Source: Stygiobacter sp. RIFOXYC2_FULL_38_25 (GTDB taxonomy: Bacteria; Bacteroidota; Ignavibacteria; Ignavibacteriales; Melioribacteraceae). Taken from it: 64,000 nucleotides of DNA. Position numbers and translations under genes: made by a program. Location: positions 62,001 through 126,000 of the forward strand of contig MHAZ01000003.1 of NCBI GenBank assembly GCA_001803165.1, read 5' to 3'. The notes under the pieces are model-generated. The model was not told the DNA's origin. It searched no databases and worked only from the letters and a program-made list of their open reading frames with translations. This document shows, one piece after another, positions 33,025-47,342 of the stretch. Position 1 is the first letter of the stretch, and every line of letters starts with the position of its first letter.

Positions 33025-36000
33025 TCATTTTTTAATTTCCTGAAGAGAATTTTCTACTAAACTAAGCAGTGTATTTTTGGTAAAAGGTTTAGCTAAATAA
33101 AAATCAAATCCTTCACTTAAAAAACGTTCTCTATCGCCTATCATAGCATAAGCTGTTACGGCAATTATGGGAACATGCATATATCCCGGAATTTTTCTTA
33201 TTTGATTCATTGCTTCAACACCATCTATTCCCTCCCCGAGATTTATATCCATTAGTATCAAGTCGAATTGTTCTTTCGAAGCCAATGTTACTCCTGTAAT
33301 TCCGTCCTGAGCTTCTATTATTCTTAGATGAGCCGCCAGGCAATGATTCATAAATAAGCGGTTTGAAGAATTGTCATCAACTATCAATGCAGTTTTTAAT
33401 CCTTTTTCACCTGTAGTAGGAGGTTTAACAAATGTTGTTTTACTCCTTTCTTCTACCTTCATTTTAATTTGGTTTTCATCCAAAATCGCCGGCAGCCAAA
33501 TTGAGAAAGTAGTTCCTTTACCTACTTCACTTTCTACTTGGATAAACCCTTTCATTAATTCAACAATTCTTTTGGCAATTGTTAACCCGAGTCCCGTTCC
33601 TTCGTGACCCCTGCTGTAACCTTCGTCAACTTGTCTAAACTCGCTAAAGATTTTTTCTAAATTATGCTTTGATATTCCAATTCCGGTATCAATGATTGTA
33701 ATAACTGCCCAATCTAAATCTTCTTTTCTTTCGTGATGCAAAGAGATAAAGACACCTCCAACTTTTGTAAACTTGACTGCGTTGTTAACCAAATGAAAGA
33801 TTGCTTTACCAAATAGTTCGCTGTCAATCTGAGCCATCATATATGTATCACTGAGCTCTGTTTTCAAAAATAGCCGTTTTGCCTGAGCCATAGGTGTAAA
33901 AGATATTGCCCTTTGTTTAATTTCGTTTGCAAGGTTGTAGGGTTTCAACTTTAAAAACGATTTCGCTGTCTCAAGCTTTGAAATTTCCAAGATCTCACAC
34001 AGAGTGTTGTTTAATCTTTGCCCTCCTTCAATAATGTTATTTACAAATGCCAAATGCTCTTGATTTTCCAATTCATTCTGAAGCAATTCTGCAAAGCCTA
34101 ATACGGAAATTAACGGCGTTCTCAATTCATGGCTCATATTAGTAAGGAAGCAGTTTTTAAGTTTATTCATCTCCTCTGAATGCTCTTTTGCTTTTATAAG
34201 TTCTTCCTCAACTTTTTTCCTCTGAGTAAGATCTACATACATGCCATATATGCCAATTATTTTATCATTTAGAGTAACGGGGACGCCAATGATCTGCACG
34301 TACACATTAGAGCCATCTTTTTTTCTGCGGTAGCTTTCTTTGTTAATATAGTTACCGCCGCGAGTTAAATCGGAATAACTCTTAGCTTCCACTCTCAATT
34401 CGGGTGGAACGATTGAATCCGATAATGGCTTTCCCTTAATTTCATCAAGAAAATATCCAAATAAAATTGTGAACGACTCGTTAGTAAGTACAATTCTATC
34501 TTCATCATCCAGCAGAACAATAGCAATAGGAGAATTATCAAATAATTGCGCAAACTTATTTTTTTGAAAAATAATTTCTTCTTCTGCTTGTTTACGGTCT
34601 GTAATATCATTTATACTTGATAGAATGCACTTTTCATTTTGTATTGATATTATTTCCGCAGAAAACAGCCCTACTATTGTATCACCGGATTTTTTATTGA
34701 ACGAGAATGTCTTACTCGAAATGCTATTTCCTTTCAACAATTCCGAAATAACATATTTGCGGTTGTTTTCGTCCTCCCAAAGATTTAATTCTACCGAAGT
34801 CTTTCCTGTGACTTCTTCTGTTGTGTAACCGGTTATAGAATAAAAACTATCGTTTGCTTCTATTATTTTCCCATCTGATAATCTGGTAATTGTTAGGGCA
34901 TAAGATGCAGATCTAAAAGCTGATGAGAATTTCTCTTCGCTTCTTCTAAGTTCTTCCTCCGTGCGTTTCCGCTTCTCTTCATTCCGTATATATTCGAGCG
35001 CAAAAGATATATCTGTTGCCATTTCGGAAAGTAAACTAATTTCTTGTTCATCAAAGAAATTGACTTCATTTGAATAAATACAGTAACAACCAATTATTTT
35101 TCCATCACCTTTAAGCGGGAATGCCGCAAATGACTGATAACCATATGCCAATGAATTTCTTTTCCAAATTTCCGTTAGAGATTTGTCTTTTTTTATATCA
35201 TTCGAAATAAAGCAATTCCCTATGTTCAAAGCGTTAACTATTGGATTAGAGTTATAATCAACATCTATTAAATTGTTTACCGAACCGGCTGTTGCAAATG
35301 TTTCAATCTTCTTCGTATCATTATTTATAATACCAATCCAAGCACTCTGAAATTTCCCAACATCAATTGCAATCATACAGGCATCTTTAAGCAACTGATT
35401 GGGATCGTGAATTCTAACAATTGCCTGGTTGATATTACTTAGTACGGCATACACACGGTTTAATTTTATTATTCGTTCTTCAGCACGTTTACGGATTGCA
35501 TTTTCAGAAGAAAGTTCCGCTGTTCTTTCAGCCACCAATTCTTCCAGATGCTCATTTATTTTTCTTAAATCGTCCTGCGTCTGTACCAGTTCCTCATTTC
35601 TCTGTACGGCAGCCTCATAAGAAGAGAGAAGCAATGTAAGCATCTGCTGTTGACCTGCTGTGATAAACCGTCTCTTGCCTCCTAACATTATTTCAACGCC
35701 AATTCTTACTCTTTCATTTTTGTAAATATTTCTATTAGATAGAATATGCTGAACATGGGAGATGAGATAGTCTTCACTATAGGGTTTTGTAATAAAATTA
35801 TCTGCGCCGCAAGATATTCCTTCAAGAACATCTTCAGTCCTGGTAAGAGCAGTCAGTAGAATAACCGGAATATCCATCATTTTTTCACTGGCTTTTATTT
35901 CTTTGCAAAGCTCGTAACCATTCATTTCCGGCATTACAATATCACTAATAATCAGCATGGGTTTACGTTCATTAATGCATTCCAGCGCAATGTTTCCGTT

Positions 36001-36126
36001 AGTTGCTGCTACAACTACGTAATCATTTTTTTCTAAAAGATAGCTTAACTGCTCCGCTTGTGTCGGGCTGTCTTCTACTACAAGTATATAGTCAACATTA
36101 TTTGGATGATTCATTTTTACATTCAT
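33025..36126 (-). CDS. hybrid sensor kinase REC-GAF-PAS-PAS-HisKA-HATPase-REC
   Basis: REC MLIISDIVMPEMNGYELCKEIK; HisKA FLTNMSHELRTPLISVLGFAELL; HATPase GTGLGLTIAKRIVELMKG; C-term REC LILMDINLGEGIDGVEAM. Confidence 0.92.
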   Translation of the reverse strand: MNVKMNHPNNVDYILVVEDSPTQAEQLSYLLEKNDYVVVAATNGNIALECINERKPMLIISDIVMPEMNGYELCKEIKASEKMMDIPVILLTALTRTEDVLEGISCGADNFITKPYSEDYLISHVQHILSNRNIYKNERVRIGVEIMLGGKRRFITAGQQQMLTLLLSSYEAAVQRNEELVQTQDDLRKINEHLEELVAERTAELSSENAIRKRAEERIIKLNRVYAVLSNINQAIVRIHDPNQLLKDACMIAIDVGKFQSAWIGIINNDTKKIETFATAGSVNNLIDVDYNSNPIVNALNIGNCFISNDIKKDKSLTEIWKRNSLAYGYQSFAAFPLKGDGKIIGCYCIYSNEVNFFDEQEISLLSEMATDISFALEYIRNEEKRKRTEEELRRSEEKFSSAFRSASYALTITRLSDGKIIEANDSFYSITGYTTEEVTGKTSVELNLWEDENNRKYVISELLKGNSISSKTFSFNKKSGDTIVGLFSAEIISIQNEKCILSSINDITDRKQAEEEIIFQKNKFAQLFDNSPIAIVLLDDEDRIVLTNESFTILFGYFLDEIKGKPLSDSIVPPELRVEAKSYSDLTRGGNYINKESYRRKKDGSNVYVQIIGVPVTLNDKIIGIYGMYVDLTQRKKVEEELIKAKEHSEEMNKLKNCFLTNMSHELRTPLISVLGFAELLQNELENQEHLAFVNNIIEGGQRLNNTLCEILEISKLETAKSFLKLKPYNLANEIKQRAISFTPMAQAKRLFLKTELSDTYMMAQIDSELFGKAIFHLVNNAVKFTKVGGVFISLHHERKEDLDWAVITIIDTGIGISKHNLEKIFSEFRQVDEGYSRGHEGTGLGLTIAKRIVELMKGFIQVESEVGKGTTFSIWLPAILDENQIKMKVEERSKTTFVKPPTTGEKGLKTALIVDDNSSNRLFMNHCLAAHLRIIEAQDGITGVTLASKEQFDLILMDINLGEGIDGVEAMNQIRKIPGYMHVPIIAVTAYAMIGDRERFLSEGFDFYLAKPFTKNTLLSLVENSLQEIKK

Positions 36127-37184
36127 TAGAATTCCCCGTTCATTTTTTTTATTAATGTTATAAGGGCTGTTGTAATATCTTCCGGAGAAAGAATATATGT
36201 AGCTGCGTCCAACTTAATAGCCTCACCCGGCATTCCATGCACAACAGAACTTTCATTATCCTGAACAAAAGTAACAGCGCCTTTTTCTTTCAACAATTTT
36301 AGTTCATCGGCGCCGTCCCTCCCCATTCCCGTCAGTAATATTCCAACAGCTCTATGTCCAAATACTTGCGCTGCTGTCCGGAAAAGATAAGCTACAGAGG
36401 GACGCAAACCATTTTCCAGATTATGATTGCTAAGAACTATTCTTGGTCCACTTTCAACTCCCATATGAAAATCATCCGGGGCAACGTAGCCGTGACCAGG
36501 CAAAAGTTTTTCTCCATCAGATGCAATATGTAATTGAAAGTTAGTAGAGCTCTTTAGCCATTCTACAAAGCCTTCGGTAAATCCGTGCGAGATATGCTGC
36601 ACAATTAGTAGTGGTACCGGCAAGTTCTTGGGTAACTTATTAAGAATTTTTTGTAATACAAGAGGTCCGCCGGTTGAAGCCCCTATAACAATAATTTGTA
36701 TAGAGGTTTCCTCCTTTATTTTATTTTCTATCGCCGTTACAGTATGGGTATATTTTTCAAACTCTCGTTTGGTGCGTCTAACGATTTTCACTTCAGACAT
36801 TAATTTCAAAGTCTGTATCAGTTCTTGTTTATCTTTTTCATAATCGGGATGATCTACACTTGAAGGCTTCTTCACTATTGCTAAAGCTCCGGCTTCAATC
36901 ATACTAAATGAGAAGACTACATCTTTAGCAGCTAAACTAGAAGTAACAATTACAATTGGTGTGGGACAAGTCTCCATTATAATACGAGTTGCTTGCTTGC
37001 CGTCTAATTTCGGCATTTGCCAATCCATTGCAACTATATCCGGGTTTAATTCTTTAACAGCTTCAACTGCTTCTTCGCCATCATATGCTGCCCCAACAAT
37101 TACAAAATCCGGATCGGAGCTTATTGCATGAATCAATAATTGCTGCATTACCGGCGAGTCTTCTACAATAAGGACTTTGATCAT
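36126..37184 (-). CDS. cheB: chemotaxis protein-glutamate methylesterase CheB
   Basis: REC MDWQMPKLDGKQATRIIM then IVIGASTGGPLVLQKIL...GILLTGMGRDGADELKLLKEKG. Confidence 0.94.
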   Translation of the reverse strand: MIKVLIVEDSPVMQQLLIHAISSDPDFVIVGAAYDGEEAVEAVKELNPDIVAMDWQMPKLDGKQATRIIMETCPTPIVIVTSSLAAKDVVFSFSMIEAGALAIVKKPSSVDHPDYEKDKQELIQTLKLMSEVKIVRRTKREFEKYTHTVTAIENKIKEETSIQIIVIGASTGGPLVLQKILNKLPKNLPVPLLIVQHISHGFTEGFVEWLKSSTNFQLHIASDGEKLLPGHGYVAPDDFHMGVESGPRIVLSNHNLENGLRPSVAYLFRTAAQVFGHRAVGILLTGMGRDGADELKLLKEKGAVTFVQDNESSVVHGMPGEAIKLDAATYILSPEDITTALITLIKKMNGEF

Positions 37185-37210
37185 CGTCTTTCACCTATTT
37201 GTTAGTAGCG

Positions 37211-37295
37211 GTTTAGGTTGTAAACTGTTAGGCAATAGGCTATTAGGCTGTAGACTGTTAGCTTTACACCTATAGTCCATCCACCAACAAGCCTA
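37211..37295 (-). repeat. downstream repeat flank of the four-helix-bundle gene
   Basis: Minus: TAGGCTTGTTGGTGGATGGACTATAGGTGTAAAGCTAACAGTCTACAGCCTAATAGCCTATTGCCTAACAGTTTACAACCTAAACC; begins at the gene's TAG stop. Confidence 0.8.
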
Positions 37296-37652
37296 TTTTC
37301 CATTGCGTATACTTCGAGCTAAAGCTCCTAATACTTTTTCAGTTTCCAATAACTTTAAGTTACTCTCGTTTGCGATTGATTCTTTTACGTAACCCAAGCG
37401 GATTGCTAACCCAAACTGATAATGCAGTTCTCTTAATGACGCGAAAGCAATTTCAAGGAATCGAAGGTATTCAGTTTGACTTTCGCGAGCACATCCTTCA
37501 ACGATGTTTGATGGAACGGAAACCACTGCCCTTCTCATCTGAGAAGTTAAGCCATAAATTTCTTCTCTCGGAAATTCTCTTGTTATCTGATAGATTAAAA
37601 CTGCAATTTCATCAGCAAGTTCAAATGCTCTGAGTTTAGTGTGATCTCTCAT
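37293..37652 (-). CDS. four-helix-bundle protein (S23 / 23S rRNA intervening-sequence protein family)
   Basis: FELADEIAVLIYQITREFPREEIYGLTSQMRRAVVSVPSNIVEGCARESQTEYLRFLEIAFASLRELHYQFGLAIRLGY. Confidence 0.92.
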   Translation of the reverse strand: MRDHTKLRAFELADEIAVLIYQITREFPREEIYGLTSQMRRAVVSVPSNIVEGCARESQTEYLRFLEIAFASLRELHYQFGLAIRLGYVKESIANESNLKLLETEKVLGALARSIRNGK

Positions 37653-37660
37653 CTTTTTCT

Positions 37661-37694
37661 CCTATAGTCTAATAGGCTACAACCTATTAGCCTC
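37661..37694 (-). repeat. upstream repeat flank of the four-helix-bundle gene
   Basis: Minus: GAGGCTAATAGGTTGTAGCCTATTAGACTATAGG; perfect CTAATAGG...CCTATTAG palindrome starting 5 nt after the cheA stop. Confidence 0.8.
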
Positions 37695-37697
37695 TTG

Positions 37698-39980
37698 TTA
37701 CAAAAGTTTTTTAATTACTTCCAAAAGATTACTCTGATCGAAACTACTTTTTACTATATAAGCATCGGCGCCAACATCTATTCCATGTTCACGGTCCTCC
37801 CGCGATTCTAAAGCAGTAACTAAAACCACCGGCAACTCGCTAAGTTTTTTTTCTTTTCTAATTTTTGCTGTAAGTTCAAATCCGTTCATCCTCGGCATAT
37901 CTACATCAGAAACAATCAAATCATATTTACCTACTAATGCTTTGGTAAATGCATCAATGCCATCAACAGCCGTCTCAACTACATAACCGGCAGTTTCAAC
38001 TATATTTTTTATAAGTGTCCTTGATGTAATAGAATCATCAATAACAAGGATTCTATATTGCCTTGATGTTTCGGCTTCTACTTCCCGTGCCACTTTAAAT
38101 GAATAGTCTGCATTGATTGCCGATTTCAATAGATCAGAGACATTAATAACCGGAACAATTTTACCCGAACCCAGCACTGTGGCTCCGTTTATATTTCTAA
38201 CTCTGCTTAATTGTTTTCCCAATTCTTTAACAAGAATTTGGCATTCCTCTACTATGTCATCAACCTCAAAAGCTATTTTTTTATCTGCGTAACTAAGAAC
38301 TATTAACTGAACGATATTTGTCTGACTATCTTCCTCATTCTTTTTTGATCTGTTCTTACCATTCCCGTTTGTCAGCTGTAATATTTTGCTAAGGTTGGCA
38401 ACGGTAAGAATTTTCCCCTCAATCATTATTGTTTTTTTATTTTCAACAGTCTTAATCGTATCACTGTTTACTCTTAAAGTGCGTTCAATATTTATGGTTG
38501 GTATTACAAACAAATGTTCAGATGCATTAACTATAACGCCCCTTAAAGTTGAGAGTGTGAGAGGTAGAATTAGACGGAACGTTGTTCCAATTTTCGGCTG
38601 ACTTTCAACTGTGACTGAACCGCCAAGTTTTTCTACCTTCTCACGCACTATGGCTAAACCTAAACCCCGTCCCGAAATGTCTGTTATAATTTGACTTGTA
38701 GAAATGCCGGATTGGAATATCAGCAACAAAGTTTCTTGTACGCTTAGTTTTTCGGAAGTCTCATTAGTTATCACCCCGGTCTTTAGTGCAGCATTGCGAA
38801 CTTTCTCTAGCTCGATGCCCGAACCGTCATCTGAGACAATAATTTCAATATGGCGGCTTTCCGTAGTATTAAAACTTAGCGTCACTTTACCATGGGCAGG
38901 CTTATTTAATTTTTTCCTTTCGGAAGGTTTATCTATTCCATGATCAATACAATTGCGGACAAGATGAATTAACGGAACTTTCAATTCTTCTAAAATCCGC
39001 TTGTCAACTTCTACTTCTTTTCCATTTATAATTAGCTCGACCTCTTTACCCTTACTCCGCGCAAGTTCTCTTACGAATTTCGGGAAACCTTCAACTATCG
39101 TAGATATTGGAAGCATCAAAATACTTTTCATTGATTCGACGTGATAATCAATCATTCGTCCATGTATGCGCTGGTCATTATCCAAAGCTTGGAATACATT
39201 ACTAATTTTGCCGGTAAGCTCGTCTAGTTTTCCTTTTTCATGATCAATTATTTCTTTTAATTGCATTCCTTTTGCCACAGAATGATGAGACTCCCATTTT
39301 CTAGTTTCCTTTTTCCACGTTTCAATAAAATCTATTATCGTTTTCAATTCGGAGGTTCTTTGCACAGCCGCAATTTTACTCTGAATCATTTCTTCCGCTT
39401 GTAGAAAAAGGGGATCTAATTTTGAGGTTGGTATTCTTACTGTTTCAAATTGTTGTAATTTTTCTTCACCAAAAGAAGTTACAGCAGCTGCGCCACCGGC
39501 TAAGGATTCATTCCTCGAAATATTTTCATCTGATTTTAGAGTAGGGATTTCTTTTACATCATCAGTGACACTTTTGGTTTTTTCTACAAGAATAGAATTT
39601 ATTTTTTCCAATAACTCTTTGCATTCAACGGAAGTTTTTGTTTCACTGTCCGAAACCATGCCGGAAATACAATTAATGGCGCTATGAATAAGGTCATACT
39701 GTAAAGCAACTAAGTTCATTCCCTCATTTTTTATTTTCCCGAATATACTTTCTAAAATCTGACAGATAGATTCAACATCTTTCTTATTAACAGAGCGGGC
39801 TGCACCTTTTAAGCTGTGTGCTTCGCGGAAAATTGTTTCAACTATTTCATTGTTCTTTGCGCTTATCGGCAGCTTCTCTAATTCGATTAAACCGGCAGTT
39901 AATTTCTGTATATGCTCTTCTGCTTCAATCCGAAAAGTAGCTTGAAGCCGTTGTAAAAACTCTTCATCTTTTTTATCCAT
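37698..39980 (-). CDS. cheA: CheA-REC hybrid histidine kinase
   Basis: HPt EAHSLKGAARSVNKKDVE; LVRNCIDHGID; GRGLGLAIVREKV; CheW-like domain; C-term REC LIVSDVDMPRMNGFELTAKIR; MDKKDEEFLQ at 39980 is the likely start (track 40055 start lies inside the repeat). Confidence 0.93.
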   Translation of the reverse strand: MDKKDEEFLQRLQATFRIEAEEHIQKLTAGLIELEKLPISAKNNEIVETIFREAHSLKGAARSVNKKDVESICQILESIFGKIKNEGMNLVALQYDLIHSAINCISGMVSDSETKTSVECKELLEKINSILVEKTKSVTDDVKEIPTLKSDENISRNESLAGGAAAVTSFGEEKLQQFETVRIPTSKLDPLFLQAEEMIQSKIAAVQRTSELKTIIDFIETWKKETRKWESHHSVAKGMQLKEIIDHEKGKLDELTGKISNVFQALDNDQRIHGRMIDYHVESMKSILMLPISTIVEGFPKFVRELARSKGKEVELIINGKEVEVDKRILEELKVPLIHLVRNCIDHGIDKPSERKKLNKPAHGKVTLSFNTTESRHIEIIVSDDGSGIELEKVRNAALKTGVITNETSEKLSVQETLLLIFQSGISTSQIITDISGRGLGLAIVREKVEKLGGSVTVESQPKIGTTFRLILPLTLSTLRGVIVNASEHLFVIPTINIERTLRVNSDTIKTVENKKTIMIEGKILTVANLSKILQLTNGNGKNRSKKNEEDSQTNIVQLIVLSYADKKIAFEVDDIVEECQILVKELGKQLSRVRNINGATVLGSGKIVPVINVSDLLKSAINADYSFKVAREVEAETSRQYRILVIDDSITSRTLIKNIVETAGYVVETAVDGIDAFTKALVGKYDLIVSDVDMPRMNGFELTAKIRKEKKLSELPVVLVTALESREDREHGIDVGADAYIVKSSFDQSNLLEVIKKLL

Positions 39981-40004
39981 CCCGTCAATCCTTTCTAGTT
40001 GAGT

Positions 40005-40119
40005 TAGGTTGCTTAGGCTGAAGACCGTTAGGCTATATGCTGTTAGCCTAAGCACCTACAGTCTATCCACCTAAAAGTCTAATTTCCTACTGCCTAATAG
40101 CCTACAGCCTATTATCCTA
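40005..40119 (-). repeat. gene-less copy of the S23-type repeat element
   Basis: Minus: TAGGATAATAGGCTGTAGGCTATTAGGCAGTAGGAAATTAGACTTTTAGGTGGATAGACTGTAGGTGCTTAGGCTAACAGCATATAGCCTAACGGTCTTCAGCCTAAGCAACCTAA; begins at the MCP stop codon. Confidence 0.8.
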
Positions 40120-41865
40120 AATTTTATACTGTTCCACCATTGCTTTTAATTTCTGTCCTAACTCATTCAAACCTTTCGCTGCTTTTTCCGCTTGTAACAT
40201 ACTCGCTGCATTTTCAGCTCCAGCTTGATTTATGTTATTCATCGCTAATCCGATTTGGTCCATACCAACTACTTGCTGCTGACTTGAAGCAACAATTTGA
40301 GTTGCAGCTTCAACTGCTCTGCTGCTTCCTTCTGCCAATTTTCTTATTGATTCTCCCGCTTGAGTAGATTGCTTTACTCCATTTTCTACTGCTTTGCTGG
40401 TCTGCTCTGTTGCCATTACTGCCGCGCTTGTAGCTTTTTGTATATCTACTAAAATGTTTCGTACCAATATGGTTGCTTGTTTTGATTGCTGTGCGAGGCT
40501 TTTTATTTCCTGCGCAACAACTGCAAATCCTTTCCCTTGTTCGCCCGCCTTTGCTGCTTCAATTGATGCATTTACTGCCAATAGATTTGATTGATCTGCT
40601 ACATCATTAACTGATGCAATGATTCCACCAATCTGCTGGCTTTGTTCGCTTAAGCGAACGATTGTATTTGCAACAGATTCCATCTGAACTTGAATGTTAT
40701 TCATTCCACTTACAGTTTCATCCACTGCTTTTTGACCGGTCTGCGTTACCTGAGAGACTTGCTGTGCATTCTCTGAAACACGGCTGGCTTTTTGATTGGA
40801 TAGTTGTGCTGCTTGACGCACTTCTTCTACTGTTGTTGTTGTTTCGCTGATTGCAGATGCTGTTTCCGCAGCTCCCGATGCAACTTGTGTTGTTGCTGCT
40901 AAAATTTCGCTGGCTGATGAACCTAGTAAATTTACTCCTTCAATAATATCTTTCATTATGCGCCGGAGATTGTTAAGCATTTGCAGAAATGTATTTCCTA
41001 AAACATCCTTGTCGGATTGCGGGACAATAGAACATGTTAGATCTCCGTTAGCAATTTTTTTTGCAGCTTCCGCCATTTCTTTTAACACATTTACCATTTT
41101 TGCAAATGTCTGGTAAAGTCTTCCAACTTCATCTTCCCTATCAGTGGTTGCCAGCTCAATATTTAAATCGCCTTCACTAATTCTCGCGGCAACTTCAGTA
41201 ACCTCGTTGAGTGGTTTAGCAATTGTTTTGTTTAACACCATTACCATTGCAACGCTGAAGAAAAGCGCTAAAGTACCGAAGACAAAAAAGAGAAGAATTG
41301 CAGTATTAGCTTCTCGCTGATCAATCATAAGCTGGTCTTCAGCATCTTTTGTGGCTTTATCACCTAATTCAGTTGATAGGACTCTTATTTTTTCAAAGCG
41401 ATTAGCCTGAACTGTTGTTCCGAGTTTTTGCGCTTCAACTATTTTTCCATTTTGTATTAACAATATCTCTTCATCTCTAGTAAGCCGATACAAGTCAATT
41501 TCATTTTTCAATTCTTTCAATCGGTTTTGAATTTCAGAATCAGTATTAAGTTTGGAAAGTTTTTCAATAATGTCATTAATTTCTTGTCTCCTATCAATTA
41601 TACTCTTTTCAAATTCGTCCTGTTCTTTTTTATTCTTTGTCAACATCATATCCAAAATTGCGGCTCTGTTATAGTTTTGGTGAGATCTCAATTGCCGAAG
41701 CTCGAGTGCAATCTGAAAATTTACTTCATACAATTCCTTTTCAGATTGTGTGATATTCTGTAGATCACGGTAAGCAATAAAAATTACTGCAATGAACATT
41801 AAACATATCAATCCGAAACTAAATAACAGTTTAGTGCGTGTTGTTAGATTCATAAAATATTTCAT
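40117..41865 (-). CDS. methyl-accepting chemotaxis protein 1
   Basis: 4HB-type sensor, TM, HAMP, signalling tip [55 protein letters not shown]. Confidence 0.95.
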
Positions 41866-41897
41866 GTTTATTGTTCCTCTTTCTATGAAAAAGATTT

Positions 41898-43544
41898 TTA
41901 TAATTTATACTGATCAACCAGTATTTTTAATTTTTGTCCCAACTCATTCAAACCCTTAGCTGCTTTTTCAGCTTGTATCATGCTGGCTGCATTTTCAGCA
42001 CCGGCTTGGTTTATATTATTCATTGCCAAGCCAATTTGGTCCATACCAACCACTTGCTGTTGACTCGACGCTACAATTTGAGTTGTTGCTTCTACTGCTC
42101 TGCTGCTACTTTCTGCTAACTTTTTTATTGATTCACCGGCTTGGGAAGATTGCCTCACTCCATTTTCTACTGCTTTGCTGGTTTGTTCCGTTGCCATTAC
42201 CGCCGCACTTGTTGCTTTCTGTATATCAATCAAAATGTTTCTTACCAATATTGTTGCTTGTTTTGATTGCTGTGCAAGGTTCTTAATTTCTTGAGCCACA
42301 ACTGCAAATCCTTTTCCTTGTTCGCCCGCCTTTGCTGCTTCAATTGATGCATTTACTGCCAACAGATTTGATTGATCTGCTACATCGTTAACTGATGCAA
42401 TGATTCCGCCAATCTGCTGGCTTTGCTCGCTTAAACGCACAATTGTATTTGCAACGGATTCCATCTGAACTTGAATATTATTCATCCCGGCTACCGTTTC
42501 ATCAACTGCTTTCTGTCCGCTCTGAGTTACTTGCGAAACTTGTTGAGCGTTCTCAGCAACACGGCTTGCTTTTTGACTTGATAGCTGCGCTGCTTGTCGT
42601 ACTTCTTCTACCGTTGTTGAAGTCTCGCTGATTGCAGATGCTGTTTCCGCTGCACCCGATGCAACTTGTGTCGTTGCTGCTAAGATCTCACTCGCTGAAG
42701 AACCTAGTAAATTTACTCCTTCAATAATATCTTTTATTGATGAGCGCATTTTTTCAACCATCTGACGAAATGCTAACATGAGAATACCTGATTCATCGGC
42801 TCTAATTGCTATTGTAGAAAGATCGTTAGTGAGATCACCGGCAGCAATTCGATTGGCAGCCTTAACTGTCAGATTCAGAGGTTTTGTTATACTCAGTGTA
42901 AGGGAAGTAATAATCGCCGCAGATAGAACTACAGCCAAAATTCCGAGAATGAGTATGGTTGTACGCCCTGCACGATATACTCTTTCCGCCTCTTGAAAGC
43001 GGAGAAGTGTTTGCCCTTCCACATGTTTAATCAGTGTGCTTGAATTATTAATAAGTCGTTTAACGGTGGGGTAGGCTTTGGTAAATACATAAACAGTTGC
43101 AACGCGGGTATTACCCTTAAAAGCCATATCAATTGCTTCTCCTGTACGCTGTTGAGCGCTATCAGCAGTAAGTGTAATTTTATTAAGAAGCATCAATCCA
43201 GTTGAGTCGTTGCCGGTAATTAGTTTTTTGATCTCTGCAAGATTCTTATGATAATTTTTCCAGCTGTCGGTCCAGTTGTCTTTCATTTTCTGGAGGCTCG
43301 CATTTGATTCATTATTATATTTTAACAGCAGCGTACCTCTTACAGCCAATGCAATTTCTCTTGCGTTATCTATCATGTTATTAGCCAGCTGCGTTCGTAC
43401 ATTTTCAACTCCAACAATCGTTTTAAGTTCGGAATCAACACTACTCACAGCATCCAATCCTATTACAATAATGACAATCATCAGAATAATTAAGAGACCG
43501 AAACTCAATGTCAATCTTAATCCTATTTTCATGTTCTTAAACAT
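41898..43544 (-). CDS. methyl-accepting chemotaxis protein 2 (paralogue)
   Basis: Near-identical signalling domain to MCP 1 with a different sensor; MFKNMKIG start at 43544 is likely. Confidence 0.95.
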
Positions 43545-43574
43545 TTTTCGTTTTCTCCTATAATAAATGACCAT

Positions 43575-44210
43575 TTATTCCGCTTCCTGATGCACGATAA
43601 TTTTTTCGTCCCTTAATATTTTTTCTGAATCAAGAATGATTGTATGATCACCGGTAATTCCTTTCAAATACTCTGCCCCAATTCCTATTGCCGAAATAGG
43701 CGAACTTTGAAGCTCATCAACTGCAACTGAACGGGTTCCGAGAATAACATCCGCCAGAATACCAAACTCTATCTGCTCATTTCTAAGTACTATAACTTTG
43801 TTCAATTCCCCCAAGCCTTTTTCCGGTAAATTGAAAAATCTTTTCAGATCAATTACAGAAATAATCTGTCCACGAATGTTTATGATTCCTATTACAAACG
43901 AAGGCACCCCGGGTAGAATTGTAAAATCCTTTAACGGATATACTTCGCGGCAAAACGATGTTTCTATTCCATACTTTTCGTAAGCCAAACTGAACTCAAT
44001 AATTTCGATGAAATCTTTTTGAGCCGACTCATCTTTAATTTCCACAGCTAAGTTTTGGGCTCTTGTTTTTAGTATAGCTCGTTTCTCTTCGGGAGATATT
44101 TTTATTTTTTGATTAAGAGATTCTTGCAGCGAATCAATTTTATTTTTTATGCCTTCCCAATCATATTTTGAATTTTTCTGTTCACCAATTTCAGATTTAG
44201 TTGCCGTCAT
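43575..44210 (-). CDS. CheW-domain protein
   Basis: YGIETSFCREVYPLKDFTILPGVPSFVIGIINIRGQIISVIDLKRFFNLP; MTATKSE start likely. Confidence 0.9.
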   Translation of the reverse strand: MTATKSEIGEQKNSKYDWEGIKNKIDSLQESLNQKIKISPEEKRAILKTRAQNLAVEIKDESAQKDFIEIIEFSLAYEKYGIETSFCREVYPLKDFTILPGVPSFVIGIINIRGQIISVIDLKRFFNLPEKGLGELNKVIVLRNEQIEFGILADVILGTRSVAVDELQSSPISAIGIGAEYLKGITGDHTIILDSEKILRDEKIIVHQEAE

Positions 44211-45675
44211 AATTAGCTCCCGCTTGTATAGACGCACTTAATATTTCTTTGAATCTTCCGGCAGTTAACCCCTCCGATTCGGGGAGTATATCCTCAACTT
44301 TGCACTTACTTAAAAGTGATAGAACTATTTTATAATTCTTTTGGGCGCTTTTTGTCTTCCCAAGCTGCTTATATATGTTTCCAAGAGCATAGTATGAGAG
44401 AACAAAATTAGAGTCTATGTACATTGCCCGTTTCAGCGAAACTATAGCTTCACTTAGTTGATTGTTTTCTTGAAGGATTATTGCCTGAAGGTAATATAAG
44501 CGCGGATCTAGTTTATAAGTGGCTATTGCTTCTTCACAAGCAGCCTTCGCTTCATTAAGTTTTCCCCGGTTAGCTAAATCACGAATTTCAATTATGTGTT
44601 GTTCTGTCGTGCGGTCTTCTTTTAGAACTTCATCAAGTATCACTGTGCTGTTTTCTACCGGAGATGATAATGATGGAAGCAGTTCGTAAGTATCAGTAAC
44701 TTTTTCTTCTATTTTATCCGGCGGCAAAGTAATTGGATGATAAATAGAATTCGGGCTAACCGGCAATTGAAACGACAACTCTTCACGCGGCGATTCCATA
44801 ACCGGGATCTTATTTTTCCTTTTAGTTTTAGTAAAAGGTTTCCTAAAAACCACAGCTCCCGGCAAGTTAATATGGGTGAATTCCGAAAAGTTCTGAACAG
44901 ATAGCTCACTCGCCGAAACTATTAGATAGCCCCCATGTTGGAGAGCGTTATATAATCTATTCGTTACTTTTCCAGAGCAATCATTTGTGAAATACATCAG
45001 CACGTTACGGCAAAAAACTATATCCATCGCATTCGTATTATTCAGCGGAGATGGGAAAACATCTTCCGCTAAATTGAGATATTCAAATTTCACCATATCT
45101 CTTATAGCGGGAATAACTGAGTATTTATTTTTTTCTCTCTGCACACAATAATTTTCTCTTAACCATTTAGGGGCATTTCGAAATGACCAGTGGCTGTATT
45201 CCCCCTCAGCAGCTTTTCGCAAAACATGTAGATTAACATCAGTTGCCAGAATAGTGATGTTCCAAGAGCTGATATTTGGAATTACTCTCGAAAGTGCAAT
45301 GGCAATGGAATAGGGCTCTTCACCTGAAGAACAACCGGCACTCCAGATTCTGATGCATTTCTCTTTTTGCCGCAAACTTACAAGTTCCGGAAGAATCTTT
45401 TGCATTAGAGCTTCAAAGGTTTCCGGTTCACGCCAAAAGAATGTTTCGTTAATTGTAAGGTGCGCTGCTAAGACTTCCAAGCTCTGCGAGTGTTGTTGGG
45501 CAGAGATAAGATGAAGCGCAAATTGCTCAATATCATTAAAACCACAATTATTTGCGGCAGGAACTAATTTTCGTTCTAAGTCATTCCATCTTTCTTTGGG
45601 AAAATGCAACCCAAGTCCTGACGAAATAAAATCACTAAGTTTTAATAGAGTATGTTCCGACAAAATATGTTTCAT
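44197..45675 (-). CDS. CheR methyltransferase with C-terminal TPR repeats (WspC-like)
   Basis: LTINETFFWREPETFEAL, RIWSAGCSSGEEPYSIAIAL, DIVFCRNVLMYF; TPR KLNEAKAACEEAIATYKLDPRLYYLQAIILQENNQLSEAIVSLKRAMYIDSNF. Confidence 0.92.
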   Translation of the reverse strand: MKHILSEHTLLKLSDFISSGLGLHFPKERWNDLERKLVPAANNCGFNDIEQFALHLISAQQHSQSLEVLAAHLTINETFFWREPETFEALMQKILPELVSLRQKEKCIRIWSAGCSSGEEPYSIAIALSRVIPNISSWNITILATDVNLHVLRKAAEGEYSHWSFRNAPKWLRENYCVQREKNKYSVIPAIRDMVKFEYLNLAEDVFPSPLNNTNAMDIVFCRNVLMYFTNDCSGKVTNRLYNALQHGGYLIVSASELSVQNFSEFTHINLPGAVVFRKPFTKTKRKNKIPVMESPREELSFQLPVSPNSIYHPITLPPDKIEEKVTDTYELLPSLSSPVENSTVILDEVLKEDRTTEQHIIEIRDLANRGKLNEAKAACEEAIATYKLDPRLYYLQAIILQENNQLSEAIVSLKRAMYIDSNFVLSYYALGNIYKQLGKTKSAQKNYKIVLSLLSKCKVEDILPESEGLTAGRFKEILSASIQAGANYDGN

Positions 45676-45686
45676 CCCACCCTTCT

Positions 45687-46151
45687 TTAAACTATTTCAC
45701 CCAATATTTTCTCTTCCTCATTAGTGAGAAATTTTTCCAGATCGGTTATTAATACGATGTTACTATCAATCTTGCTTATGCCGGAAAGATAGACTGTGTA
45801 TGGAAATGCCTCTGCAGAATCTACAATTTGGCTTTTGCCAAGTTCATATACACCCGAAACTGAATCAACAACAATTACAATTAAACGTTTGGATGTTTTT
45901 GCAATTACGAATTGCGCTTCTAAGGATAATTCTTTAGTTGGTAAGCGGAATCGTTTGCGGATATCTATTACAGGAATAATTAATCCTTGATAATTCACAA
46001 TGCCTAATACTATATCCGGGGCTTTAGGCAAAGGTGTTATTTCTACCGAAGAGACCACTCTTTCAACCGCCGATAATTGAAACGCGTATTTGATGTCATC
46101 AAGATTAAATAAAACTATTTTATCTATATCACTAATGTCTATGTTATGCAT
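45687..46151 (-). CDS. CheW-domain protein
   Basis: YAFQLSAVERVVSSVEITPLPKAPDIVLGIVNYQGLIIPVIDIRKRF. Confidence 0.9.
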   Translation of the reverse strand: MHNIDISDIDKIVLFNLDDIKYAFQLSAVERVVSSVEITPLPKAPDIVLGIVNYQGLIIPVIDIRKRFRLPTKELSLEAQFVIAKTSKRLIVIVVDSVSGVYELGKSQIVDSAEAFPYTVYLSGISKIDSNIVLITDLEKFLTNEEEKILGEIV

Positions 46152-46527
46152 CCTTGCCTACCTGTCCGTTTAACGAAAGTTGTTCTATCAAATTTCTAAT
46201 TACCTGGATGTTTTCGTTTTTGTCAAAGAAGTAATCAGCTCCTTCTTCCGCACATTTAGTCTTATATGGAAGAAATGGGAAATTGGTGAAAACGCAAACT
46301 TTTATTTTGTTGTCTCGGCTTTTTATTTTTTTTAATACCTCAATGCCATTTAGTTCAGGCATCCTAATATCTAACAAAACAAAATCCGGACTTACTTCAT
46401 GAATGATTTTTACAGCTTCCTTCCCATTCGTAGCTTCACCAACTATTTCAACCGTGCTAATGTTTTTCAGCGATTCCTTAATTCTCTCCCTAACCATATC
46501 CGAATCATCAGCTATTACTATTTTCAC
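46144..46527 (-). CDS. single-domain response regulator
   Basis: KIVIADDSDMVRERIKESL...DFVLLDIRMPELNGIEVLKKIK. Confidence 0.9.
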   Translation of the reverse strand: MKIVIADDSDMVRERIKESLKNISTVEIVGEATNGKEAVKIIHEVSPDFVLLDIRMPELNGIEVLKKIKSRDNKIKVCVFTNFPFLPYKTKCAEEGADYFFDKNENIQVIRNLIEQLSLNGQVGKDA

Positions 46528-46628
46528 TGTGTCCCCTATTGCAGCAACTCGGCTAAATATAGATTAGAATGATTCAAAAAAGTGTAGGTCAATTGCTGAT
46601 TTCTTTGTAGGTGTTTGCCTGACATGAA

Positions 46629-46690
46629 TTAGGCTGTGGTACTTAGGTAGTAGGCTATTAGGCTATAGGCTGTTAGGCTGTATGTTATGG
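46629..46690 (-). repeat. third copy (partial) of the S23-type repeat
   Basis: Minus: CCATAACATACAGCCTAACAGCCTATAGCCTAATAGCCTACTACCTAAGTACCACAGCCTAA. Confidence 0.75.
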
Positions 46691-46712
46691 TTAGCTGCTG
46701 TTTATCGTGTTC

Positions 46713-47342
46713 TCATTCTATCAAATCATTTTTGATAGCGTAATGAGTCAATTCCGCATTATTTTTTAAGCCGGTTTTTTCAAGCACCCGGGTTCGGTAG
46801 GTACTGATTGTTTTATCACTCAAAAATAATTCGCGCGCAATTTCTTTAACCGATCTTCCCTTTGCAAGCATACACATTATTTGAAATTCACGTTGAGATA
46901 GCTTTTCATGAGGAAGCTTACTAATACCATTTTTTTCATCAAAAATAATTTTCTCAGCTAAAACCGGGGTAATGTACCTTCCACCGCCGGCAATTTTTTT
47001 AATTGCTACTGCCAGTTCTTCCGTGACGCTATATTTACACAAATAACCGGATGCACCTAAATTAAATGCTCTAATAGCATACTGTTCTTGCGGGTGTACA
47101 CTTAATATTAGTACGTTTTCTTTTTCTTCCCTATCCTTTATCGTCTTAAGAATATCGAGACCGCTCAAACCGGGCATTGAAATATCTAGTATTACCAAAT
47201 CATAGTTACTTTGTTCAATTTTAGTAAGAGCTTCGTGTCCATCTCTAGCTTCCTCTACATTTGAAACCTCGTCCATTTTCATTACAATTTGTTTCAATCC
47301 TTCTCTAACAATGGAATGATCGTCCGCAATTAACACATTCAT
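46713..47342 (-). CDS. NarL/LuxR-family response regulator
   Basis: LVILDISMPGLSGLDILKTIK; HTH LSQREFQIMCMLAKGRSVKEIARELFLSDKTISTYRTRVLEKTGLKNNAEL. Confidence 0.93.
   Translation of the reverse strand: MNVLIADDHSIVREGLKQIVMKMDEVSNVEEARDGHEALTKIEQSNYDLVILDISMPGLSGLDILKTIKDREEKENVLILSVHPQEQYAIRAFNLGASGYLCKYSVTEELAVAIKKIAGGGRYITPVLAEKIIFDEKNGISKLPHEKLSQREFQIMCMLAKGRSVKEIARELFLSDKTISTYRTRVLEKTGLKNNAELTHYAIKNDLIE

Follow-up and report, generated by a model that had tools for sequence, protein, structure and literature searches.

Between cheA and cheB, the window (the whole 64,000-nt stretch of Stygiobacter sp. RIFOXYC2_FULL_38_25 that was analysed) carries an S23 gene (23S_rRNA_IVP) enclosed by inverted TAGGCTGT-type repeats (Table 1). 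The window belongs to a 4.4-Mb genome that is 99.8% complete. The product of the S23 gene scores 107.5 bits against PF05635 (S23 / 23S_rRNA_IVP), for which the curated cut-off is 33.8, and is confidently predicted to fold as a four-helix bundle. The best structural match of the model is Xanthomonas XCC0516 (2GSC; TM 0.91, ~43% identity), followed by Avd, both alone (4DWL) and within the DGR RNP (8UB8), at a TM of ~0.77, which supports the Avd-like fold proposed in the initial annotation; the Avd profile itself reaches E=2.7e-7 and 30.9 bits, below its equivalog cut-off of 80. The closest named match of the protein is in a Melioribacter MAG. S23 is described as a pentamer in a passage of PMC4990558 that cites Lin et al. 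(2006). The lack of a reverse transcriptase, first remarked for the window, extends to the whole genome, in which RVT_1 has no match alongside 15 S23 genes, and a reverse-transcriptase partner was rejected on that count. Rfam returned no match within window positions 36000-47000.

Table 1. Features of the S23 cassette and of the surrounding che cluster (window coordinates).
Feature	Position	Strand	Basis
S23 gene (23S_rRNA_IVP, four-helix bundle), 119 aa	37293..37652	(-)	PF05635 E=4.9e-31; pLDDT 94.6; TM to 2GSC and 4DWL
5' arm: GGCTAATAGGTTGTAGCCTATTAGACTATAGG; S23 ribosome-binding site at its end	37657..37692	(-)	sequence; complementarity to 3' arm
3' arm: forward words GGTGGATGGACTATAGGTG (37267-37285), then reverse words AACAGTCTACAGCCTAATAGCCTATTGCC...; adjoins cheB ribosome-binding site	37211..37292	(-)	sequence; repeat family D3
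cheA, upstream neighbour	37698..39980	(-)	ORF and tblastn to homologues; likely start ATG at 39980
cheB, downstream neighbour	36126..37184	(-)	ORF and homologues
S23-less palindrome of the window word, between chemoreceptor gene and cheA; contains GGTGGATAGACTGTAGGTG, homologous to 3' arm of S23 cassette	40013..40111	(-)	
Solo array of the window word, no S23, same che gene cluster	46629..46691	(-)	genome-wide repeat search (46643-46691)

The anatomy of the flanks was confirmed from the sequence as originally described: starting 5 nt past the stop codon of cheA, the 5' arm closes with AGGAGAAAAAG-ATG, the TAG stop of S23 is part of a TAGGCT word, and the 3' arm reaches the cheB ribosome-binding site, AGGTGAAAG. 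The two arms are complementary with a score of 14; of 210 mismatched pairs built from arms of the genome's other S23 genes, one reaches that value. This bears out the first reading of the locus as an S23 gene within an inverted repeat cassette. The word is a variant of the 7-nt tandem (STRR-type) heptamer, because its spacing alternates between 7 and 8 nt. Among the flanks of L083-L162, the S23 stop codon frequently falls within a repeat word (TAG in TAGGCT or TAGCCTAC), and the arm and the coding end are therefore fused. A stable RNA hairpin at the cassette is weakly supported by the folding predictions, the predicted stem being weakly better than shuffled sequences (z = -1.7, with a second z-score of -2.0), and these values led us to drop it as the main feature. 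By inspection, no clear terminal inverted repeat (TIR) or 8-bp target duplication is present in the window copy.

Read along the minus strand, the chemoreceptor gene is followed in turn by the S23-less palindrome, cheA, the S23 cassette and cheB. The mechanical ORF call for cheA (37698-40055) begins at a GTG within this palindrome, upstream of the likely ATG; automatic annotation may therefore translate the repeat. A search that allowed up to three mismatches located the TAGGCTGT word at three sites of the genome, all in the che cluster (the chance of all three falling in one che operon is ~2e-5), and gave one further match, weak and unrelated. The association of repeat and S23 that the initial annotation had raised is supported, with a qualification: the word accompanies this S23 subfamily across phyla, but not genome-wide in one organism, where S23 is present at one of the three che places and absent from the palindrome and the solo array. 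Among relatives, the chemoreceptor-cheA junction is found in three states, namely the palindrome of the window, an empty gap of ~14 nt (L083) and a full S23 cassette (L084), and the cheA-cheB junction is full in the window, L083, L093 and L096 and holds a palindrome in L084. Orthologous cheA-cheB junctions are without S23 in 7 genomes of the order, with a gap of 13 nt in the closest, in agreement with the proposal that the cassette is an insertion. The nearest named relative carries S23 at the same cheA-cheB site (identity 76% for CheA/CheB and 85% for S23), with a divergence that is ordinary. Since this copy is common to a close relative and has no clear TIR or target duplication, it is probably a resident copy and not one that is moving at present, and the label of self-contained mobile element is not supported for it; its best explanation is vertical inheritance dating back to the separation from a Melioribacter relative or earlier. 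In L093 and L096, S23 is 74% identical to that of the window when CheB is 43-46% identical, and G021, which is nearer to the window (CheB ~55%), has an empty cheA-cheB junction; it follows that this junction has probably been entered at least twice.

Each of the 15 S23 genes of the genome occupies its own site, and 12 are flanked by inverted arms with a word of their own, including TTAGTAT (nuoC-nuoD), GATGCTA, GTAGAGT, GAGAATT, ACGAAGT and GAGCAAG. For 11 of these 12, no more than one of the 210 mismatched pairs scores as high or higher, and for the remaining gene 5 do. Sampled over 184 S23 loci, the arms consist of degenerate ~7-nt tandem repeats with a periodicity of 7-14-21 nt (lag-7 identity 0.42 vs 0.30 shuffled), which is sharp in the 108 loci from the window genome and its relatives; the arms of the window subfamily peak near 15, as the 7/8-nt alternation gives. 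Within the same 108 loci, scores of at least 12 were reached by 57% of matched and 1.8% of mismatched arm pairs. Median array length is 35 nt, or five heptamers, at a value that depends on the detection threshold, and its coincidence with the pentamer of the passage cited above is suggestive. Lag-7 arrays number 23 in 833 kb of the genome, against 0-4 for lags of 5, 8, 10, 11 and 13, and 11 of them are no more than 30 nt away from one of the 7 S23 genes in those 833 kb (0.03 expected); the remaining 12 are S23-less, several carrying, by eye, words of S23 cassettes located elsewhere in the genome. S23 is under purifying selection: in the window subfamily third codon positions are near saturation at 40% identity, with the first two positions at 73 and 83%. 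Decaying copies exist as well, as at L012 (G000:C1:201884-202192), where the S23 gene is interrupted by an in-frame TAA next to degenerate ATCAAGATTAAGATCACGAGCAAG repeats.

In these comparisons the heptamer word tends to go with the S23 protein family, and not with the genome. The signal was weak for plain shared 6-mers and clear for words that are repeated three times or more. Between genomes, the frequency of a repeated 5-mer in common rises from ~9% for dissimilar S23 proteins to ~50% for similar ones; dissimilar S23 proteins within one genome share words at background (7%), and the outer flanks of S23 loci show no word-protein effect. The association is significant (Mantel p=0.001), also when the window subfamily is left out, where r is small (0.15), and the two arms of a locus co-vary (Fisher p=2.7e-5, with relatedness uncorrected). 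Across Bacteroidota, Desulfobacterota, Verrucomicrobiota, Lentisphaerae, Spirochaetes, Calditrichota and further groups, the window subfamily retains TAGGCTGT/TAGGCTGA despite the low identity of its third codon positions. Recognition of the word by the protein is one way to read this pairing; co-inheritance in a cassette that moves as one unit could produce it without recognition, which counts against our preferred explanation.

By crude ORF calls, S23 is sense to its upstream gene in 161 of 165 loci, with both neighbours sense in 139 loci and both antisense in one; the upstream stop precedes the S23 start by a median of 68 nt, and upstream arms are G-rich and downstream arms C-rich. Such a bias in orientation would be expected from selection for read-through expression, or from a transcription-dependent mechanism. 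S23 recurs in nuo operons across the window's order, at nuoC-nuoD (L275-L304) and at nuoD-nuoE of a second nuo operon (L011). At nuoC-nuoD, seven of the examined genomes have S23 genes that are related to each other (52-63% identity between genera), a set in which the words differ (G003 has another word); G028 holds an unrelated S23 there (21% identity), and most other genomes examined have the junction without S23. The S23 genes found at nuoC-nuoD in several genera are mutual nearest relatives; this also fits vertical descent with many losses, contrary to the explanation that we favor.

One branch of relatives carries the marks of a DNA element. In some Desulfobacterota and Nitrospirota, the ends GTAACTACTCAGGTGGATAG occur up to 51 times per genome (at most two mismatches), and most of the examined copies are S23-less, with an S23 fragment retained in L325 and L335. 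An 8-bp duplication matches in 15 of 25 elements and is perfect in 10 (~0.1 expected), and S23-deleted copies also have target duplications. The element in L310 (1493-1946), 453 nt long, is complete: it has TIRs, S23 as the sole evident gene and TATTTTAA at both sides as a perfect 8-bp duplication. It is one example, and L399:2988-3321 another, of a MITE-like family with the TIR GTAACTACTCAGG and 8-bp target duplications in MAGs of these phyla (L307-L336 and L398-L417), the interiors of which include arrays of other heptamers (GGTTCAC) or none. The TIR stands upstream of S23 in 11 of 81 subfamily loci and, for the order to which the window belongs, in 1 locus out of 109; given its rarity outside this branch it should not be taken as the general mechanism, and its absence, with that of duplications, from the window copy and nearly all loci of the order means that two kinds of movement may be mixed. 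The inverted repeats of IS66 begin GTAAGCG and its direct repeats are of 8 bp (PMC11946415), and the IS66-type GTAA ends and 8-bp repeats of the TIR branch therefore make a transposase in trans possible. The search for an autonomous transposon sharing the TIR ended, after correction of the pattern, with 12 unpaired ends in draft genomes and no evident transposase, as judged from ORF starts rather than by profile search. The TIR was absent from viral contigs, among which XCC0516 as query matched two distant relatives of S23.

The reading that we find somewhat probable is that of a portable, selfish S23-heptamer cassette, akin to the intervening sequences (IVSs) of 23S rRNA, in which a ring of S23 would bind its own repeats. 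Such a cassette would be a ~0.5-kb unit in which a promoterless S23 gene stands between two arrays of one ~7-nt word, forward ahead of the gene and inverted behind it, and it would insert at gene junctions within operons in the sense direction, as its observed position and orientation suggest. S23 would be expressed by read-through from the upstream gene, and the pentamer may recognize its word on RNA or on a single strand, plausibly at about one heptamer per subunit; such recognition would account for the joint evolution of word and protein and for the S23-less arrays of the same word elsewhere in the genome. The cassette may undergo RNA processing, and S23 may drive its spread. The element would be selfish in the manner of S23-coding 23S rRNA IVSs, but sited in mRNA junctions, where insertion would be followed by long residence, vertical descent and decay, and one branch would move as a DNA element with TIRs and 8-bp duplications, perhaps by means of an IS66-type transposase in trans. 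Mobility as such is apparent from sequence in the relatives, through the empty, filled and S23-less states of junctions, the unrelated S23 at nuoC-nuoD and the 453-nt element with its duplication.

The strongest alternative, although considerably less probable, is a portable post-transcriptional regulator, in which S23 binds heptamer arrays in mRNA and controls the translation or decay of its own operon. Solo arrays would then serve in trans as the sites of a small regulon, and the module would be retained by selection at the cheA-cheB and nuoC-nuoD junctions. This reading is strongest for the che operon with its three arrays. The confinement of all copies of the word in 4.4 Mb to one operon also fits a local regulatory role. 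The ribosome-binding sites supplied by the arrays, purifying selection on S23, persistence at the same site in L083 and the nuo loci, and the translational role that MacGregor proposed for TAACTGA arrays (PMC4679880) point the same way. A regulator sits less easily, however, with the patchy presence at each junction and the many empty sites, the occasional S23 gene with stop codons, the dispersed near-copies with target duplications, and the unrelated functions of the neighboring genes.

We regard as improbable that the heptamer palindromes are conventional MITEs of an IS66-type transposase, with S23 as cargo. The GTAA-starting TIR GTAACTACTCAGG, its duplications and their resemblance to those of IS66 speak for such a passenger in the branch described above; yet the TIR is scarce upstream of S23, no transposase was seen at the 12 unpaired ends, and the pairing of word and protein would be left unexplained. 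A retroelement unit like those of diversity-generating retroelements, with S23 serving as the Avd of a reverse transcriptase, is highly unlikely: the fold and the Avd profile match would suit it, but the profile score falls far below its cut-off and the near-complete genome, for all its S23 genes, has no RVT_1. Slightly less credible still are REP/RAYT-type palindromes moved by Y1 transposases, for although four Y1_Tnp genes are present in the window's genome, G045 has 38 ends and four S23 genes without any Y1_Tnp, the repeat lies near just 1 of 24 Y1 loci, and the arms are arrays of words rather than a fixed REP; we rejected this candidate on the first two of these grounds.

Support for the preferred reading of a selfish S23-heptamer cassette also comes from beyond the window's order. 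Cyanobacterial plasmids have the same architecture, with S23 genes framed by classical heptamers, as by (GGGAACA)n and (TGTTCCC)n in Nostoc and by (AAAAGCT)n in Pseudanabaena, at sites that comprise cas6-cas4 (twice), cas10-cmr3 and transfer genes. Those within plasmid CRISPR-cas operons are at L223:1495-1863, L228:1501-1860 and L231:1492-1848. Heptamer arrays have been reported as TAACTGA, for which "no mechanism is evident" (PMC4679880), as GGGAATC in Xanthomonas and GGGGA(T/C)T in Nostoc, generally without association to mobile elements (PMC4692102), and as cyanobacterial STRRs. A literature search for which subscription papers and preprints were mostly out of reach found no description of a link between S23 and heptamers. 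Two old puzzles, the role of S23/IVP proteins and the heptameric tandem repeats of bacterial intergenic DNA, may share one answer. Tentatively, and with more doubt than belief, S23 proteins might be the recognition (perhaps mobility) proteins of a large, unrecognized class of minimal mobile elements, each ~450 nt in length with a single gene that encodes a four-helix bundle of 118 aa; the heptamer arrays of cyanobacterial, Xanthomonas, Beggiatoaceae and Bacteroidota genomes would be the remnants and non-autonomous derivatives of these elements, and S23-type 23S rRNA IVSs the rRNA-dwelling members. If S23 does bind its own word, it would constitute a small ring-protein family of evolvable sequence specificity, with natural protein-site pairs ready-made, and genes annotated as "four helix bundle protein" next to such repeats would become interpretable.

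The cassette shares features with several known systems. Its arms resemble bacterial heptamer arrays in being intergenic, ~7-nt tandem words that are patchy among relatives, those of Xanthomonas often forming inverted pairs; unlike the published arrays, to which no protein or mobile element has been tied, those described here frame S23 genes and are paired with the protein. The Avd of diversity-generating retroelements is related to S23 in fold and sequence, but the Avd profile stays below its cut-off and the genome has no reverse transcriptase. IS66-type MITEs have in common with one branch of relatives the GTAA-starting TIRs and the 8-bp duplications, which the window copy lacks, and differ in that S23 is the only ORF of the cassette and no transposase was found. 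The organization also resembles that of S23-coding 23S rRNA IVSs, such as the one of Coxiella burnetii (PMC4990558), a unit of ~0.4 kb with a sense S23 ORF between terminal inverted repeats and tandem heptamers (GACAGAT) directly 5' of that ORF. The window cassette has the same S23 ORF between inverted repeats and lies outside the 23S rRNA gene; unlike IVSs in rRNA helices, these cassettes occupy the mRNA junctions of ordinary operons, with S23 intact and under purifying selection.
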